A model generated the notes under the pieces. That model saw only the letters and a list, made by a program, of their open reading frames with translations. It had not been told where the DNA came from and did not search any database. Positions 65 to 24,203 of a DNA stretch of 53,404 nucleotides are shown here, piece after piece (the first letter of the stretch is position 1; each line of letters starts with the position of its first letter). The translations under genes were made by a program, and so were the position numbers. Origin of the DNA: Ruminococcus sp. (GTDB lineage: Bacteria > Bacillota > Clostridia > Oscillospirales > Ruminococcaceae); NCBI GenBank assembly GCA_030531185.1, contig JAUNOG010000012.1:1-53404 (forward strand), written 5' to 3'.

Positions 65-365
65 TTTTCATTCTCCTTTTCACTATCATTTGATTATATT
101 CTATAGTACATTATGTTATTTTAATTTTCAACAGACTATTGGCTCTTTATTTGAGTTATATATACTATGGATATGATTAATGAAAAATCTTTTCTCTAAT
201 AGAAGCTAGTAAGTATAGAAAATATAACAATACAGTAAGAAACTTTTGACGAGTGGAGTGTTAACTGATTTATTTCTAAAAAAAGTGTTAACCCCCTTTA
301 CAAAGAGATTGGTTTGTGCTATAATAGTAATCGTAAAAATTTGCGTAAAAAAGGAGGAGCTTATA
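65..365. other. divergent intergenic region before carA
   Basis: This stretch separates the possible minus-strand gene from carA. It is AT-rich and holds the weak minus-strand promoter near 103-131 and the strong carA promoter at 297-325. The predicted carA leader is only about 35 nt, with no room for a PyrR-type attenuator. Nothing else is recognisable. Confidence 0.6.
297..325 (+). promoter_or_regulatory. sigma-A promoter of carA
   Basis: TTTACA (297-302), a 17-bp spacer and a perfect TATAAT (320-325). It lies about 40 bp before the carA start and probably drives carA, carB-dapF and perhaps dapL. Confidence 0.8.
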
Positions 366-1439
366 GTGCAGAAAGCATATCTGATTTTGGAAAACGGTAC
401 TGTATTCGAGGGTAAAAGCTTTGGTGCTGTCGGCGAAGCTATCGGTGAAATTGTTTTCACAACAGCTATGACAGGCTATTTAGAGACTCTTACAGACCCC
501 AGCTATTACGGTCAGATCGTCGTTCAGACTTTCCCTTTGATCGGTAATTACGGCGTTATTCCAAACGATTTTGAGAGTGAATGTCCTCACGTTAAAGCTT
601 ATATTGTCAGAGATTGGTGTCAAGAACCCAGCAATTTCCGCTGCGAGGGTGATCTTGACATTTTTTTAAAACAGCATAACATCGTAGGTCTCTACGGTAT
701 CGACACCCGTCAGCTTACAAGAATTGTAAGAGAACACGGCGTTATGAACGGAAGAATAGTTCCCGAGGGAGCAAGCTTCGGACTTACCGATATTAAGAAT
801 TACACCATTGTGGACGCTGTCAAGAACACCACCTGCAAGGAGGAAAAGGTGTATTCTCCCGAGGGGGAGGTCAAGAACAGGGTAGTGCTGTTCGACTTCG
901 GCGCAAAGGCTAACATCTGCCGTTCTCTGGTGCAGAGAGGCTGCGAGGTCACGGTTGTTCCCGCGGACACGACCTGCGAGAGAGTTCTGGAGATCGACCC
1001 CGACGGCATTATGCTGTCCAACGGTCCCGGAGACCCTGCGGAAAATGTGGAGATTATTGAAGAGCTTAGAAAGCTTTCAGAGAAGAAAATACCTACCTTC
1101 GGTATCTGTCTGGGACATCAGCTTTACGCTCTTGCGCACGGCGCTAAGACCCACAAGCTGAAGTACGGTCACAGAGGAGCGAACCAGCCTGCCGAAAATC
1201 TTGAAACGGGCAGAGTTTACATTACTTCGCAGAACCACGGATATGCGGTCGTCAACGACAGTCTGCCCGAGTGCGCTGAGGTCTCGTTTGTGAACGCCAA
1301 CGACGGCACCTGCGAGGGAGTTAAGTATCTCGACGAGCCTGCATTCTCGGTACAGTTCCACCCCGAGGCTTGCGGAGGTCCGCTGGATACGGGATTTTTG
1401 TTTGACGAGTTCATTGAGATGATCGAGGCAAACAAGTAA
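366..1439 (+). CDS. carA: carbamoyl phosphate synthase small (glutaminase) subunit
   Basis: CarA removes ammonia from glutamine and passes it to CarB to make carbamoyl phosphate for arginine and pyrimidine synthesis in the cytoplasm. The 357-residue length is typical. The N-terminal half begins with a segment like AYLILENGTVFEGKSFGA. The C-terminal half is a class I glutamine amidotransferase, with the nucleophile Cys in FGICLGHQL and the His in QFHPEACGGP. I place the start at GTG 366, 7 nt after AAGGAGGAG. An in-frame upstream start at 246 would add 40 residues foreign to the family and cross the promoter. The gene is followed after 40 bp by carB-dapF, so both subunits are made together. 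Confidence 0.95.
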   Translation: MQKAYLILENGTVFEGKSFGAVGEAIGEIVFTTAMTGYLETLTDPSYYGQIVVQTFPLIGNYGVIPNDFESECPHVKAYIVRDWCQEPSNFRCEGDLDIFLKQHNIVGLYGIDTRQLTRIVREHGVMNGRIVPEGASFGLTDIKNYTIVDAVKNTTCKEEKVYSPEGEVKNRVVLFDFGAKANICRSLVQRGCEVTVVPADTTCERVLEIDPDGIMLSNGPGDPAENVEIIEELRKLSEKKIPTFGICLGHQLYALAHGAKTHKLKYGHRGANQPAENLETGRVYITSQNHGYAVVNDSLPECAEVSFVNANDGTCEGVKYLDEPAFSVQFHPEACGGPLDTGFLFDEFIEMIEANK

Positions 1440-1479
1440 CAGCGACATTGGCTAATTTATGAGAAAGGATTGAAATTTA

Positions 1480-4400
1480 ATGCCTTTAAATAAAGATATT
1501 AAGCGAGTTCTTGTTATCGGTTCGGGCCCTATCGTTATCGGTCAGGCTGCGGAGTTTGACTACGCGGGTACACAGGCTTGCCGCGCGCTCAAGCAGGAGG
1601 GTCTTGAGGTTATCCTCATCAACTCAAATCCCGCTACCATTATGACGGATAACGCTATGGCTGATAAGATATATATAGAGCCGCTTACACTTGAAACCGT
1701 AAAAAGAGTTATCAAAAAGGAACGCCCCGACAGCCTGCTTTCAACGCTGGGCGGTCAGACGGGTCTTACCCTTTCAATGCAGCTTGCAAAGGAGGGCTTC
1801 CTCGATAAGTATAACGTAAAGCTTCTGGGCGCAAATCCCGAGACTATCGACAAGGCTGAGGACAGACAGATGTTCAAGGACACTATGGAGTCTATAGGAC
1901 AGCCCTGCATTCCTTCAAAGGTAGTCAATACCGTTGAGGACGCTGTGGACTTTGCAAATCAGCCCAGCATAGGCTATCCTCTTATTATCAGACCCGCGTT
2001 TACCCTCGGCGGTACGGGCGGCGGTATCGTCCACAACGAGGAGGAGCTTATCGACATTACCAGAAACGGACTTTATCTTTCTCCTATCACACAGGTTCTT
2101 GTTGAAAAGTGTATAGCAGGCTGGAAGGAGATCGAGTTCGAGGTTATGAGAGACTCCAAGGGCAACGTTATCACGGTCTGCTCTATGGAGAACTTCGACC
2201 CTGTTGGAGTTCATACGGGTGATTCCGTGGTTATCGCTCCTACGGTTACGCTGGCGGACAAGGAATATCAGATGCTCCGTTCCGCTGCGCTGAAAATTAT
2301 CGATACTCTTAAAGTAGAGGGTGGCTGTAACTGCCAGTTTGCTCTGAACCCCGAGACCTTTGACTATGCTGTAATCGAAGTAAACCCGAGAGTTTCGCGT
2401 TCCTCAGCTCTTGCGTCAAAGGCGACAGGCTATCCTATCGCCAAGGTTGCGGCTCAGATCGCTATAGGATATACTCTCGACGAGATAAAGAACGCCGTAA
2501 CAGGCAAGACCTACGCTTGCTTTGAGCCTGCGCTGGACTATGTAGTTGTAAAGCTGCCTAAGTGGCCTTTCGATAAGTTCGTTTACGCAAAGCGCGATCT
2601 GGGTACTCAGATGAAGGCTACGGGCGAGGTAATGGCTATCGGTACGACCTTCGAGCAGGCTATTATGAAAGCAGTAAGGGGCGCGGAGATAGGTCTTGAC
2701 TACCTTACCGCTCCTAAGTTTGAGGAGCTTGACGACGAGACTATTGCAAAGAGACTTCACGAGTGCAGCGACGAGAGACTGTTCATTGTTTTCGAGGCTC
2801 TCAGAAGAGGTACTTCCGTTGAAGAAATTCACGAAATTACAAAAATAGACGAGTGGTTCCTTGACAAGCTGAGAAAGCTTATCGATATGGAAAGAGAGCT
2901 TGCCAAGGGCGATTACACTCAGGAAACATATTTACATGCTAAAAAGCTTGGTTTTACGGATAAGGTCATCGAGAGAATTTCGGGCAGAAAGGTGGAAAAG
3001 CCTGCCCACGCGGTATTCAAAATGGTTGACACCTGCGCCGCTGAGTTTGCGGCTATGACCCCGTATTTCTACTCTACTTACGACAGCGAGGACGAGGCTG
3101 CCGAGTTCATTCAGAGCAAGGGCAGTGACAGGGAAACTGTTATCGTATTCGGTTCGGGACCTATCAGAATAGGACAGGGTATCGAGTTCGACTATGCGTC
3201 GGTACACTGCGTATGGGCGCTTAAGGAACACGGCTACGACGTTGTTATCGTAAACAACAACCCCGAGACGGTTTCCACCGACTTCGATACAGCCGACAGA
3301 CTTTATTTCGAGCCTCTCACAAACGAGGACGTTATGAACATAATCAGAGTTGAAAAGCCTGTGGGCGTGGTAGTAGCTTTCGGCGGACAGACCGCTATCA
3401 AGCTTACAAAGCATCTTAACGAGCAGGGCGTGAGAATTCTCGGAACTCCTCCCGACTCTATCGACGCGGCGGAGGACAGAGAGCGTTTCGACGAGCTGCT
3501 TGAAGAGCTGAAGATCAAGAGACCCGAGGGCTTTACGGTAATGACCACCGAGGAGGCTCTTGAGATCGCCAATAAAATACACTATCCTGTTCTGATGAGA
3601 CCGTCGTATGTTCTCGGCGGACAGAATATGATAATCGCATTCAACGACGACGATATCAAGGAATATATGGCGATAATTCTCGCTCAGGGAATTGAGAACC
3701 CTGTGCTTATCGACAAGTATCTTATGGGTACGGAGCTTGAAATAGACGCTATCTGCGACGGCGAGGATATCCTTATCCCCGGAATTATGGAGCATATCGA
3801 GAGAACGGGTATACACTCGGGCGACTCCATTGCGGTTTACCCCGCTTGGAACGTTTCCGACAAGCTTATCGACAGAATTGTTGACTGCTCCAAGAGACTT
3901 GCCATTTCGCTTAATACAAAGGGACTTGTTAATATACAGTACCTTATTTATCACGACGAGCTGTTCGTTATCGAGGTAAATCCCCGTTCGTCAAGAACAA
4001 TTCCTTACATTTCAAAGGTTACGGGCGTTCCTATGGTCGATCTTGCCACAAGATGTATGCTGGGCGAGAGACTTGCGGATATGGGCTACGGTACGGGACT
4101 TTACAGAAATTCGCCTTACGTTGCGGTCAAGGTGCCTGTGTTCTCCTTTGAAAAGCTTATCGGCGTAGACAATCATCTGGGACCTGAGATGAAGTCCACA
4201 GGCGAGGTTCTTGCAGTATCAAGCTCCCTTGAGGAGTCGCTGTACAAGGGACTTACAGCGGCAGGCTATAAGCTTGACAAGAAGGGCGGAGTATTTATTA
4301 CCGTAAGAGACGCCGACAAGAGCGAGATACCTCACACTGCCAAGATGTTTGCTGATTTGGGCTTTAAGATATACGCTACTCACGGTACTGCTAAGGTGCT

Positions 4401-5538
4401 CCACGAGCACGGTATCGAGGCTGAAACCGTTGCCAAGATACACGAGGACGATAAGAACAATACGCTTTCGCTTATCGAGAGCGGAAAGATCTCATATGTT
4501 ATTTCTACCTCCTCAAAGGGAAGAATTCCTACGAGAGACTCCGTTAAGATAAGACGTAAGACCGTTGAGTGGAATATTCCCTGTCTTACATCTATCGATA
4601 CTGCGAACGCTATCGCGGCGTCTATCCGCAGTAAGTATACCGAGGCTACCACAGAAATTGTAGACATCAACGATATGAGAAACGAAAAGCAGACCCTACG
4701 GTTCACAAAAATGCAGGGCTGCGGAAACGATTATATCTATTTCAACTGCTTTGACCAGAGAATTGACAATCCCGAGGGCTTTGCGCTCAATCTGTCCGAC
4801 AGACATTTCGGTATCGGCGGCGACGGAGTAATTCTCATCTGCCGTTCGAAGATCGCCGACGCAAAGATGAAGATGTACAATCTCGACGGCTCGGAGGGTA
4901 AAATGTGCGGCAACGGTATCAGATGCGTCGCCAAGTTTATGAGAGACAACGGTCTTGTTGACAGAGACGAAATGACTATCGAAACTCTGTCGGGCATTAT
5001 CGGAGTTTCCCTGAGACGTCACTACGGAGAGGTTAACGGCGCAACGGTAAATATGGGTAAGGCAATACTTGAACCTGCGCTTATCCCAGTTGACCTTGAG
5101 GCTGATGAAAACGGCAGAGTAGCAGACAGAGAAGTGAACATTGACGGCAAGGATTATAAGATAACCTGCGTATCAATGGGAAATCCTCACGCAGTGGTAT
5201 TTATGAATAATGTTGACAATCTCGATATAGAAGATATCGGTCCTAAGTTTGAATATTCGCCTATATTCCCCGAGAGAGTTAATACGGAATTTATCAAGGT
5301 AATTGACAGTCACACTCTTAAAATGAGAGTATGGGAGAGAGGCTCGGGAGAGACCTTTGCCTGCGGTACGGGTGCGTGCGCAGCGGTAACTGCGGCTGTT
5401 CTCAACGGTTATTGTCCCAAGGACGAGGAGATCACGGTTATGCTGAAAGGCGGCACGCTGAAAATCAGATACACCGACGAGGCTGTTTACCTTACGGGCG
5501 ACGCTGTGACTGTGTTCTCGGGCAGCATTACAATTTAA
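1480..5538 (+). CDS. carB: CarB-DapF fusion: carbamoyl phosphate synthase large subunit joined to diaminopimelate epimerase
   Basis: One open frame of 1352 codons. Residues 1 to about 1060 are a full CarB: two ATP-grasp synthetase halves (each opening with a SGPI-IGQ-EFDYA motif near residues 12 and 560) and a C-terminal MGS-like regulatory domain. From about Met1066 (ATG 4675) the same frame encodes a full diaminopimelate epimerase of about 287 residues, with both catalytic cysteines: Cys1143 in KMCGNGIRC and Cys1295 in FACGTGACA. DapF converts LL- to meso-diaminopimelate for lysine and peptidoglycan. No ribosome binding site precedes Met1066 or the next Met, so translation as one chain is the simplest reading. 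The start at 1480 follows AAAGGA. DapL, which makes the DapF substrate, is encoded next. CarB alone is normally about 1065-1075 residues, so neither part looks truncated. Confidence 0.93.
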   Translation: MPLNKDIKRVLVIGSGPIVIGQAAEFDYAGTQACRALKQEGLEVILINSNPATIMTDNAMADKIYIEPLTLETVKRVIKKERPDSLLSTLGGQTGLTLSMQLAKEGFLDKYNVKLLGANPETIDKAEDRQMFKDTMESIGQPCIPSKVVNTVEDAVDFANQPSIGYPLIIRPAFTLGGTGGGIVHNEEELIDITRNGLYLSPITQVLVEKCIAGWKEIEFEVMRDSKGNVITVCSMENFDPVGVHTGDSVVIAPTVTLADKEYQMLRSAALKIIDTLKVEGGCNCQFALNPETFDYAVIEVNPRVSRSSALASKATGYPIAKVAAQIAIGYTLDEIKNAVTGKTYACFEPALDYVVVKLPKWPFDKFVYAKRDLGTQMKATGEVMAIGTTFEQAIMKAVRGAEIGLDYLTAPKFEELDDETIAKRLHECSDERLFIVFEALRRGTSVEEIHEITKIDEWFLDKLRKLIDMERELAKGDYTQETYLHAKKLGFTDKVIERISGRKVEKPAHAVFKMVDTCAAEFAAMTPYFYSTYDSEDEAAEFIQSKGSDRETVIVFGSGPIRIGQGIEFDYASVHCVWALKEHGYDVVIVNNNPETVSTDFDTADRLYFEPLTNEDVMNIIRVEKPVGVVVAFGGQTAIKLTKHLNEQGVRILGTPPDSIDAAEDRERFDELLEELKIKRPEGFTVMTTEEALEIANKIHYPVLMRPSYVLGGQNMIIAFNDDDIKEYMAIILAQGIENPVLIDKYLMGTELEIDAICDGEDILIPGIMEHIERTGIHSGDSIAVYPAWNVSDKLIDRIVDCSKRLAISLNTKGLVNIQYLIYHDELFVIEVNPRSSRTIPYISKVTGVPMVDLATRCMLGERLADMGYGTGLYRNSPYVAVKVPVFSFEKLIGVDNHLGPEMKSTGEVLAVSSSLEESLYKGLTAAGYKLDKKGGVFITVRDADKSEIPHTAKMFADLGFKIYATHGTAKVLHEHGIEAETVAKIHEDDKNNTLSLIESGKISYVISTSSKGRIPTRDSVKIRRKTVEWNIPCLTSIDTANAIAASIRSKYTEATTEIVDINDMRNEKQTLRFTKMQGCGNDYIYFNCFDQRIDNPEGFALNLSDRHFGIGGDGVILICRSKIADAKMKMYNLDGSEGKMCGNGIRCVAKFMRDNGLVDRDEMTIETLSGIIGVSLRRHYGEVNGATVNMGKAILEPALIPVDLEADENGRVADREVNIDGKDYKITCVSMGNPHAVVFMNNVDNLDIEDIGPKFEYSPIFPERVNTEFIKVIDSHTLKMRVWERGSGETFACGTGACAAVTAAVLNGYCPKDEEITVMLKGGTLKIRYTDEAVYLTGDAVTVFSGSITI

Positions 5539-5549
5539 ACATAATTTAC

Positions 5550-5581
5550 AGCCTTGCGCCGAGAGGCATTGGCGCAGGGCT
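5550..5581 (+). other. hairpin between carB-dapF and dapL
   Basis: Arms of 11 bases (5550-5560 and 5571-5581) pair with a single G-T wobble around a 10-nt loop. The following bases are AT-rich but not a clean T run. It could be a weak terminator, a processing site or a stabiliser between the two coding regions. Confidence 0.5.
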
Positions 5582-5618
5582 TGAATTGTTAATTTAAAAC
5601 GAAAAGGAGCGAACGATT

Positions 5619-6824
5619 ATGCCACAGATAAACGAAAATTTTCTGAAACTTGAAAAAAACTATCTTTTTATAAACATTGCCAAAAAGCTCAACGCTTTTA
5701 AGGAGGCTCACCCCGAGGCGGACATTATCAAAATGGGTATCGGAGACGTAACTCTGCCTATAGCTAAGGTCGTTATAGAGGCTATGAAAAAGGGCGCGGA
5801 CGAAATGGGCGTTAAGGAGACCTTTAAGGGCTATGAGGACAGCGGCGCAGGCTACGACTTCCTGAGAGAGGCTGTTTCGGGCTATTACAAGAGCTTCGGC
5901 GTTGATGTTCCCGCTGAGGATATCAGAATTAACGACGGTGCAAAGTCCGACTGCGGAAATATCGTTGATATTTTCGGTAACGACAACGTTGTGCTGGTAA
6001 CAGACCCTGCATACCCCGTATATGTCGACACAAACATTATGAGCGGCAGAAAGGTAATCTACGCAAATTCCAACGAGGAAAACGGCTTTGCGGCTATGCC
6101 TGATGAAAATGTTAAGTGCGACCTTATTTATCTCTGCTCGCCAAATAATCCCACAGGCTCTGTTTACACCAAGGAACAGCTCAAGGTGTGGATAGATTAC
6201 GCTAAGAAGAATGACGCGGTCATTATTTATGACTCCGCTTACGAGGCTTTCATCACGGAGGATAATATCCCAAGAAGTATTTTTGCGGTTGAGGGCGCAA
6301 AGGAGTGCGCTATCGAGATGTGTTCGCTGTCCAAGACCGCAGGCTTTACGGGTATGAGATGCGGATATACGGTAGTTCCTCACGAGCTTATGGTTAAGGC
6401 GTCCAACGGCGAGACCGTTTCCGTTGCGCAGCTCTGGGGCAGACGGCAGGGAAGCAAGTTCAACGGCGTTTCCTACCCCGTACAGTGCGCCGCTGCGGCG
6501 GTATTCACCGAGGAGGGACAGAAGCAGATAAAGGGAAACATCAGATACTATCAGGAAAATGCAAAGGTTATTTCAAAGACCTTTGACGAGCTTGGCGTCA
6601 AGTACACAGGCGGAAAGAATTCGCCTTATATCTGGTTCAAGTGCCCTAACGGTATGGGTTCGTGGGAGTTTTTTGACTACCTGCTTGAAAACGCAAACGT
6701 AGTGGGAACACCAGGCGAAGGCTTCGGCAAGAACGGCGAGGGCTGGTTCAGACTTACAGCTTTCGGAGACAAGGACAGAACCGTCGAGGCTATGGAGAGA
6801 TTTAAAAAGCTCCTGGGCAAGTAA
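5619..6824 (+). CDS. dapL: LL-diaminopimelate aminotransferase
   Basis: A PLP-dependent class I/II aminotransferase that makes LL-diaminopimelate from tetrahydrodipicolinate in one step, bypassing DapC/D/E. The 401-residue length is typical for DapL. The PLP lysine is in SLSKTAGFTGMRCGY; the substrate-domain motif CSPNNPTGSVY is present, as is the N-terminal MGIGDVTLP segment. The ATG follows AAAAGGAGCG. The gene lies 80 bp after the fused DapF, which acts on its product, so the two form a lysine/cell-wall module. A terminator follows directly. Confidence 0.93.
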   Translation: MPQINENFLKLEKNYLFINIAKKLNAFKEAHPEADIIKMGIGDVTLPIAKVVIEAMKKGADEMGVKETFKGYEDSGAGYDFLREAVSGYYKSFGVDVPAEDIRINDGAKSDCGNIVDIFGNDNVVLVTDPAYPVYVDTNIMSGRKVIYANSNEENGFAAMPDENVKCDLIYLCSPNNPTGSVYTKEQLKVWIDYAKKNDAVIIYDSAYEAFITEDNIPRSIFAVEGAKECAIEMCSLSKTAGFTGMRCGYTVVPHELMVKASNGETVSVAQLWGRRQGSKFNGVSYPVQCAAAAVFTEEGQKQIKGNIRYYQENAKVISKTFDELGVKYTGGKNSPYIWFKCPNGMGSWEFFDYLLENANVVGTPGEGFGKNGEGWFRLTAFGDKDRTVEAMERFKKLLGK

Positions 6825-22883: not shown

Positions 22884-24203
22884 ATGACAAAAGTGGTAAA
22901 ATTCGGCGGCAGTTCTCTTGCAAGCGCCGAGCAGTTCAAAAAGGTTAAAGAGATAATTACGGCGGAGGAGTCGAGAAGATTTGTCGTTCCGTCTGCGCCG
23001 GGAAAGAGATTTTCCGCAGATACTAAGGTCACGGATATGCTCTACGGCTGTTATGACCTTGCCGCAAAGGGTAGGGATTTCAGTACCGAGTTCAGCGCTA
23101 TCAAGGACAGATATTACGGCATTATCAACGAGCTTGGTATCGAGCTTTCTCTCGAGGACGAGTTCAATACAATAAAGGCTTGCTTTATCGGTAAGGCGGG
23201 CAGAGACTATGCCGCGTCAAGAGGCGAGTACCTTAACGGTATCGTGCTTGCAAAGTATCTGGGCTATAATTTTGTGGACGCCGCAGATGTTATCTACTTT
23301 AACGAGCAGGGACAGTTCGACGGCAAAAAGACAAACAAAATACTCTCCGAAAAGCTCGCCGGAATGGAAAATGCAGTCGTTCCGGGCTTTTACGGTTCAA
23401 TGCCCAACGATACTATCAAGACCTTTTCAAGAGGCGGTTCGGATATTACAGGTTCTATCGTTGCGGCGGCTGTCAATGCTGATCTTTACGAGAACTGGAC
23501 GGACGTTTCGGGCTTTTTGACCTGCGACCCGAGGATTATCAATAATCCTGCGCCTATCACTATCATTACATATAAGGAACTGAGAGAGCTTTCATATATG
23601 GGCGCAACAGTACTTCACGAGGACGCTATTTTCCCTGTAAGAAAAGCGGGTATTCCGATAAATATCAAGAACACAAACAAGCCCGAGGACGTGGGAACAA
23701 TGATAGTTGAGTCCACATCGCAGAAGCCTGCTTACACTATCACAGGCATTGCAGGCAAAAAGGGCTTTACCGTAATCAATATCGAAAAGGATATGATGAA
23801 CGCCGAGATCGGTTTCGGCAGAAAGGTTCTAGAGGTATTTGAAAAGAACGGTATCTGCTTTGAGCATATGCCTTCGGGTATCGATACTATGTCGGTAGTG
23901 GTTCATCAAGCGGAATTTGCCGATAAGGAGCAGGAGATACTTGCGGGTCTCCACAGAAACTGTCACCCCGACACTATCGACATTGAAACAGACCTTGCGC
24001 TTATCGCTGTGGTAGGACGTGCAATGAAGTCCAACAGAGGTACGGCGGGCAGGATATTCTCCGCCCTTGCTCACGCTCACGTTAACGTAAAGATGATAGA
24101 TCAAGGCTCCAGCGAGCTTAATGTTATTGTCGGCGTTGCGGAGCAGGATTTCGAGGCGGCAAACAAGGCGATCTACGACATTTTTGTTGAAACAAAGCTT
24201 TAA
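22884..24203 (+). CDS. lysC: aspartokinase
   Basis: Phosphorylates aspartate, the entry to lysine, threonine and methionine. 439 residues: an N-terminal kinase domain starting VVKFGGSSLAS with VVPSAPGKRFSADTKVTDML, the GSDITGS motif, and two C-terminal ACT domains (ITGIAGKKGFTVINIEKDMM and LIAVVGRAMKSNRGTAGRIF) for feedback control. The ATG at 22884 follows AAGGGG. It supplies the pathway that continues through DapL and the fused DapF at the start of the window, but is transcribed separately. Confidence 0.94.
   Translation: MTKVVKFGGSSLASAEQFKKVKEIITAEESRRFVVPSAPGKRFSADTKVTDMLYGCYDLAAKGRDFSTEFSAIKDRYYGIINELGIELSLEDEFNTIKACFIGKAGRDYAASRGEYLNGIVLAKYLGYNFVDAADVIYFNEQGQFDGKKTNKILSEKLAGMENAVVPGFYGSMPNDTIKTFSRGGSDITGSIVAAAVNADLYENWTDVSGFLTCDPRIINNPAPITIITYKELRELSYMGATVLHEDAIFPVRKAGIPINIKNTNKPEDVGTMIVESTSQKPAYTITGIAGKKGFTVINIEKDMMNAEIGFGRKVLEVFEKNGICFEHMPSGIDTMSVVVHQAEFADKEQEILAGLHRNCHPDTIDIETDLALIAVVGRAMKSNRGTAGRIFSALAHAHVNVKMIDQGSSELNVIVGVAEQDFEAANKAIYDIFVETKL

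Follow-up and report, generated by a model that had tools for sequence, protein, structure and literature searches.

A clostridial fusion of carbamoyl phosphate synthase to diaminopimelate epimerase in which the epimerase domain has repeatedly lost a catalytic cysteine

One gene in a 53,404-nucleotide stretch of DNA from Ruminococcus sp. (contig JAUNOG010000012.1; the whole stretch is called the window below) encodes the large subunit of carbamoyl phosphate synthase (CPS), CarB, joined in frame to diaminopimelate (DAP) epimerase, DapF. The fusion has a single origin and today occurs in many families of the phylum. What is new here is that Cys73 (Haemophilus influenzae numbering), one of the two catalytic cysteines of DapF, has been lost repeatedly among the fused domains and in none of the standalone ones. 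Taken together, the results lead us to lean, by a little, toward a reading in which the fusion has one origin, the window copy probably works as an enzyme, and the DapF domain has a non-catalytic role on CarB, of which ligand sensing would be the likeliest.

The fusion gene (1480..5538, forward strand, as are all the features from carA to dapL) starts with ATG and runs through 1,352 codons with no stop inside the open reading frame. Its CarB part (residues 1 to 1056; 1480..4647) is full-length, scoring 1521 bits with NF003671 (cut-off, 599) and 1472 bits with TIGR01369 (cut-off, 1027). It contains both ATP-grasp halves and the MGS-like (allosteric) domain (residues 953 to 1037; 4336..4590; Pfam PF02142, 80.8 bits). 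The DapF part (residues 1074 to 1352; 4699..5535) is also full-length, with 281 bits for TIGR00652 (cut-off, 114.65) in a match spanning residues 1074 to 1350, and Pfam DAP_epimerase matches it as well. By alignment, Cys1143 (H. influenzae Cys73; 4906..4908), Cys1295 (H. influenzae Cys217; 5362..5364), and the substrate-pocket sites are all present. An earlier, sequence-only reading of this DNA had described a single frame, two complete enzymes, and intact catalytic cysteines, and had named the next gene as dapL, whose product, LL-DAP aminotransferase, makes the substrate of DapF; each of these points held (dapL, 5619..6824; TIGR03542, 509 bits).

The sole DapF (TIGR00652, E value of 1e-15) and the sole CarB (TIGR01369, E value of 1e-120) of the window genome both lie within the fusion gene. 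DapA was found in that genome, and DAP dehydrogenase (Ddh) was not found in it (a draft, 87% complete). Given the intact active site and the lack of a match to any second DapF or to Ddh, the DapF part probably works as an epimerase on LL-DAP supplied by the adjoining DapL, and the protein as a whole is probably a working bifunctional enzyme.

That the genome is a 121-contig draft would favor an artifact of assembly or sequencing, an explanation that we regard as barely credible and that is refuted by the recurrence of the joined frame in other records. CarB and DapF were in one frame at all of 109 loci from other records (L004 to L112) and in 80 further fetched regions. In all, the same frame recurs at 160 loci with flanking sequence, from many separate assemblies, some of them of isolates. 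Because searches with the DapF part of the window retrieved these loci, and because the last 80 were chosen for spanning the joined frame, the figures describe recurrence and give no rate. Our working set of 161 flanked loci consisted of 80 named loci (the best 80 of 100 relatives), a second set of 80 hand-picked from search rows to span families, and the window. Among the named carriers are Ruminococcus bromii ATCC 27255 and Ruminococcus sp. YE71. The gene for the CPS small subunit, carA, immediately precedes the fusion in 137 of the 161 loci (14 others end there), and pyrG is directly downstream in 70, mostly named ones. One locus (L168) has a frame break inside CarB, away from the junction.

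The fusion is also found in samples of genomes drawn by taxonomic rank. Counting by hand the matches that span CarB and DapF in frame, and including the window genome, we obtained minimum counts of 63 of 297 genomes for the family sample, 134 of 394 for the order, 55 of 391 for the class, and, with a strict E value, 19 of 398 for the phylum; the four samples overlap. Unfused CarB occurs in records from the plasmid collection for S. variabile (L313), E. eligens (L315), and Monoglobus (L316).

The CarB trees show how the fusion arose. In a tree of 118 rows, a single change with support of 100 separated 88 fused from 30 standalone CarBs. When the tree was rooted, 87 fused rows formed one clade, again with support of 100 from both FastTree and IQ-TREE, and the 34 standalone rows lay outside it; none of those 34 fell inside the fused clade. 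The roots were Ilyobacter (Fusobacteriota) and two other rows, and locus L158 was left out as a long branch. One well-supported clade extending over many families means one origin, and several origins of the fusion were unsupported by the CarB tree under all three roots. Families of other orders and classes are interleaved within the fused clade, which suggests that the fused gene was transferred as a unit and thus that it spread by transfer as well as by descent. The sequence-only reading had proposed a search for the same architecture in related genomes; that search thus found it, with one origin, in many families. In the genome of the omitted L158 (G370), the fused CarB has diverged strongly (identity, 41%; score below the TIGR01369 cut-off) and two other CarBs are present; its CPS function may possibly be lost also.

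The DapF tree was less clear, requiring seven changes between fused and standalone, with 62 of its 128 inner branches poorly supported. Five standalone DapFs (L108, L186, L216, L217, and L231) were nested among the fused ones; we read them as probable products of later loss of the CarB part or of duplication. At four loci (L193, L207, L209, and L217), carA is beside a free dapF with no carB between them, followed by pyrG (the CTP synthase gene), and dapL is present in three of the four. Such loci may be the footprint of a carB that was lost or moved. Two other arrangements were seen. At L108 (1564-8251), a second dapF, standalone, comes immediately after the fusion and is itself followed by pyrG. 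At L203 (G700; 255-6567), carA, carB, dapF, and dapL are unfused, with a single stop between carB and dapF; since the CarB of G700 is outside the fused clade, this adjacency either has a separate origin or was formed anew.

Among 132 aligned DapF domains, Cys73 was lost in 41 of 90 fused domains versus none of 42 standalone ones (P = 3e-9; P values here and below ignore the relatedness of the sequences). A further 25 standalone DapFs all kept both cysteines, bringing losses of Cys73 to 0 of 67 standalone proteins. The value of 41/90 is not a population rate, as the second-set loci were hand-picked to span families. The alignment took in just 9 of the 80 named loci; with all 80 added, the loss is 41/161, and both cysteines are kept in 79 of the 80 named loci, which had been retrieved with patterns like those of the window itself. 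The replacing residues were Ala (21), Gly (10), Ser (8), Phe (1), and Thr (1). Of the two groups in the DapF tree that we label types I and II, the first has lost Cys73 in 22 of 70 fused domains and the second in 19 of 20. Mapped onto the fused CarB tree, the kept or lost state changed 17 times, at least 14 of them on starred branches. A second residue changes along with Cys73: the position of Ser1289 in the window protein (5344..5346, from the alignment of DapF domains) is Asn in 29 of 41 Cys73-less domains, 2 of 49 fused domains with Cys73, and 0 of 42 standalone domains. Among seven genera inspected more closely, six lacked Cys73 in every member sampled, and the two species of the remaining one, g223 (L306 and L307), retain Cys73 and have Ser at Cys217.

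Published single-cysteine mutants agree that one cysteine is insufficient for catalysis. The C83A and C221A mutants of Corynebacterium glutamicum DapF were almost inactive (PMC5296763), and chlamydial DapF with C72A or C207A did not rescue a D-glutamate auxotroph (PMC5885031).

Another route to meso-DAP was found in 40 of 40 Cys73-less genomes versus 24 of 40 with Cys73 (P = 4.7e-6), where absences of a second DapF or of Ddh rest on draft genomes, several of them less than 90% complete. (One genome, G036, carries two CarB-DapF fusions, L124 and L125, and was counted once.) The Cys73-less genomes had a second DapF in 27 cases, with both cysteines kept in all 27, and the remaining 13 all had Ddh. 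Among the 16 genomes in which no backup was found, 15 keep both cysteines. The sixteenth, G998 (99% complete), keeps Cys73, has lost most of the pocket, and lacks dapA, and its domain is still in frame. A dapA match above the cut-off was present in 77 of the 80 genomes, the other exceptions being G691 (76% complete) and G341 (87% complete; match below the cut-off). Gene context also differed among the 81 second-set and window loci. dapL was within three genes downstream in 24 of 41 loci with Cys73 versus 1 of 40 without, and argF was upstream in 0 of 41 versus 8 of 40; contig ends truncate some of these loci, and a single clade makes up half of those without Cys73.

We then consider what the Cys73-less domains keep. 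As a reference we took the 68 columns that are invariant (at least 95%) in 90 rows (42 standalone and 48 fused with Cys73). For the 12 pocket columns other than Cys73, conservation is 96% in the 22 type I and 93% in the 19 type II Cys73-less domains. All 12 are kept in 27 of the 41 copies and at least 11 in 37. Asn64, Glu208, Arg209, and Asn157, which contact the distal amino acid of DAP and which we placed by transferring the Anabaena numbering of PMC12039745, are among the kept sites. Within genera, the ratio of nonsynonymous to synonymous substitution rates (dN/dS; Nei-Gojobori, several saturated pairs giving no value) was 0.01 to 0.28 in Cys-less domains, 0 to 0.16 in the MGS domain, and 0.01 to 0.18 in DapF with both cysteines. 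Judged by these ratios, the Cys-less domains are evolving under purifying selection.

Repeated loss of Cys73 alongside retention of the domain, the reading frame, and most of the pocket suggests that the domain probably serves CarB non-catalytically, and a sensor of DAP or another amino acid would be the likeliest form of that role. Of the two possibilities raised in the sequence-only reading, simple co-expression falls short for the clade as a whole, since the domain persists even though its catalytic base was lost many times; shared control appears to fit the clade better.

The main competitor is a plain bifunctional enzyme, formed when operon neighbors were fused by loss of a stop codon, so that two independent enzymes are made in equal amounts, with the Cys73-less copies being redundant relics that cannot be shed because of their tie to an essential CarB. 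It accords with the carA-carB.dapF-(pyrG)-dapL operons and with the other meso-DAP route in all 40 Cys73-less genomes, and the fused CarB was the only CarB match (E value of 1e-120) in 52 of 80 genomes, with five matches split in two counted as one. A relic, however, should lose its polar pocket, yet 37 of 41 copies keep nearly all of it; low dN/dS values and the recurrent change of Ser to Asn also do not look like decay; and no sampled standalone CarB is inside the fused clade, although a stop after CarB would be an easy way out. We consider this explanation doubtful, but of the alternatives it is the strongest.

Several results weigh against a non-catalytic role or reduce its support. The 55 invariant columns outside the pocket are kept about as well as the 12 within it (93% in type I and 94% in type II), so preferential retention of the pocket was not seen in this comparison, and constraint on the fold alone could explain what is kept, as the relic explanation would have it. 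Two copies have kept fewer pocket sites, 5 of 12 in L159 (G331) and 8 of 12 in L192 (G1169), with dapA present in both genomes. A single clade, type II, accounts for 19 of the 41 losses of Cys73, which makes the sequence counts and the differences in dapL and argF look more independent than they are. Tests with independent pairs on the tree were weak (median P = 0.25 for any backup and 0.22 for a second DapF), and Ddh alone was not significantly associated with Cys73 loss (P = 0.37). The four loci with carA beside a free dapF and no carB imply that some lineages undid the link between CarB and DapF. Finally, the window genome is only 87% complete, and the window's own copy gives no sign of a non-catalytic role, which comes from its kin.

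Another possibility is a scaffold: the domain might be kept because it determines how CarB oligomerizes or how stable CarB is, whether or not a ligand is bound; DapF is known to dimerize. Retention of the fold after catalysis was lost, the almost fixed length of the junction, and G998, whose domain stays in frame even though its pocket has decayed and DapA is missing, are all in its favor. It leaves unexplained the survival of polar pocket residues in most Cys73-less copies, and we judge it improbable.

Under the sensing role that we favor, the mechanism might be as follows. The gene encodes a single chain of 1,352 residues consisting of the CPS large subunit, a junction of near-constant length, and DapF. 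In the window, the DapF part probably takes LL-DAP from the neighboring DapL; in many relatives with another source of meso-DAP, Cys73 has been lost repeatedly and the domain, most of the pocket, and the frame retained. UTP and meso-DAP are both needed for UDP-N-acetylmuramic acid (UDP-MurNAc)-tripeptide. DAP would bind in the cleft, with ornithine, arginine, or lysine perhaps taking its place in the copies in arginine operons. Binding would close the two lobes, and the short junction would relay this movement to the MGS domain, tuning the synthesis of carbamoyl phosphate. The supply of pyrimidines and of UTP for UDP-MurNAc would thereby be tied to that of DAP; this link between pyrimidines and the cell wall is drawn from the needs of UDP-MurNAc-tripeptide synthesis and from pyrG lying directly downstream in 70 of 161 loci. 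That DapF closes widely upon binding DAP is reported in PMC5296763.

We tentatively go one step further, to a possibility that we hold with less confidence than the non-catalytic role itself: CarB-DapF may be a new kind of allosteric CPS, in which an epimerase domain, working or dead, senses DAP or another amino acid, sets the output of carbamoyl phosphate, and couples pyrimidine or arginine synthesis to the supply of cell-wall and lysine precursors across a large clostridial group. If so, gut and rumen bacteria would have built an essential cell-wall enzyme into the enzyme that starts pyrimidine and arginine synthesis, and in many lineages would have turned it into a non-catalytic part of CPS. 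The repeated, tree-mapped loss of Cys73 with a mostly kept pocket makes a DAP-responsive CPS directly testable. For pathway prediction, it matters that a DapF match in a fusion-bearing genome may be catalytically dead.

If DapF were also translated separately, by internal initiation, the fusion would be partly formal. In the window (4648..4698), the CarB C-terminal motif TEIVDINDMR and a few more residues precede DapF strand 1. This conserved motif (TELVDINNMR-like) is found across the clade, with nearly fixed spacing to the start of strand 1. The codon at the usual place of the DapF start is CAG, and the nearest ATG before DapF (4675-4677) has no Shine-Dalgarno (SD)-like sequence, which rules out an internal DapF start in the window and upholds the sequence-only reading on this point. 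Of the 161 loci, 138 have ATG as the linker Met codon, in no case with an SD-like sequence ahead of it, and the other 23 have a different codon there. At the native position, 41 of the 161, R. bromii ATCC 27255 among them, have a start codon with an SD-like sequence and 120 do not; thus, some of the relatives may also make free DapF. It was commoner in copies with Cys73 than in those without (14/41 versus 2/40 among the 81 second-set and window loci; P = 0.0015). A looser count at the junction gave a start plus SD-like sequence in 42 of 161 loci; 21 control stretches of CarB averaged 10 (range, 0 to 65), and real carA starts gave 80% (116/145). As a general account of the fusion, internal initiation is very unlikely.

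We found no description of a CarB-DapF fusion in the open-access literature (most subscription journals were outside that search), in line with what the sequence-only reading had said, and none of the solved structures among the matches listed has a chain covering both parts. The two halves resemble well-known proteins. The CarB part is full-length, with the ATP-grasp halves and MGS domain, as is CarB of the CarAB synthases (Escherichia coli 1bxr and others), and differs in that an epimerase domain follows the MGS domain. The DapF part has the family (TIGR00652) and active-site motifs of standalone DapF, including both cysteines in the window; the standalone proteins are unfused and none has lost Cys73, whereas the domains joined to CarB often have. 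A second role for DapF has precedents. In the bifunctional DapF/glutamate racemase (NF038284; Chlamydia trachomatis DapF), one domain has two activities, and the window protein scored 110 bits against a cut-off of 350 for that family. In E. coli, DapF regulates RppH, an unrelated enzyme, according to PMC4227774; there the partnership is non-covalent and the target enzyme is another one, whereas here the link is covalent. Catalytically dead paralogs or domains acting as regulatory units include HisZ, with HisG, and the inactive glutaminase-like domain of human CPS1. Their folds and ligands differ from those of CarB-DapF.

The gene order in the window is carA, carB-dapF, dapL, ilvB, ilvN, and ilvC. 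carA (348..1439; TIGR01368, 460 bits) has an unsettled start codon, its frame being listed from 246. A search of the window for an RNA leader gave no Rfam match at gathering thresholds. Just 3' of the fusion stop there is a stable predicted RNA hairpin without a T-run (5541..5589; −29.4 kcal/mol, z score of −5.7); lying between the fusion and dapL, it is a possible processing or attenuation site. Farther along, at 22884-24203, the window encodes an amino acid kinase with an ACT domain that is aspartokinase-like; aspartokinase is the entry to the lysine/DAP pathway.

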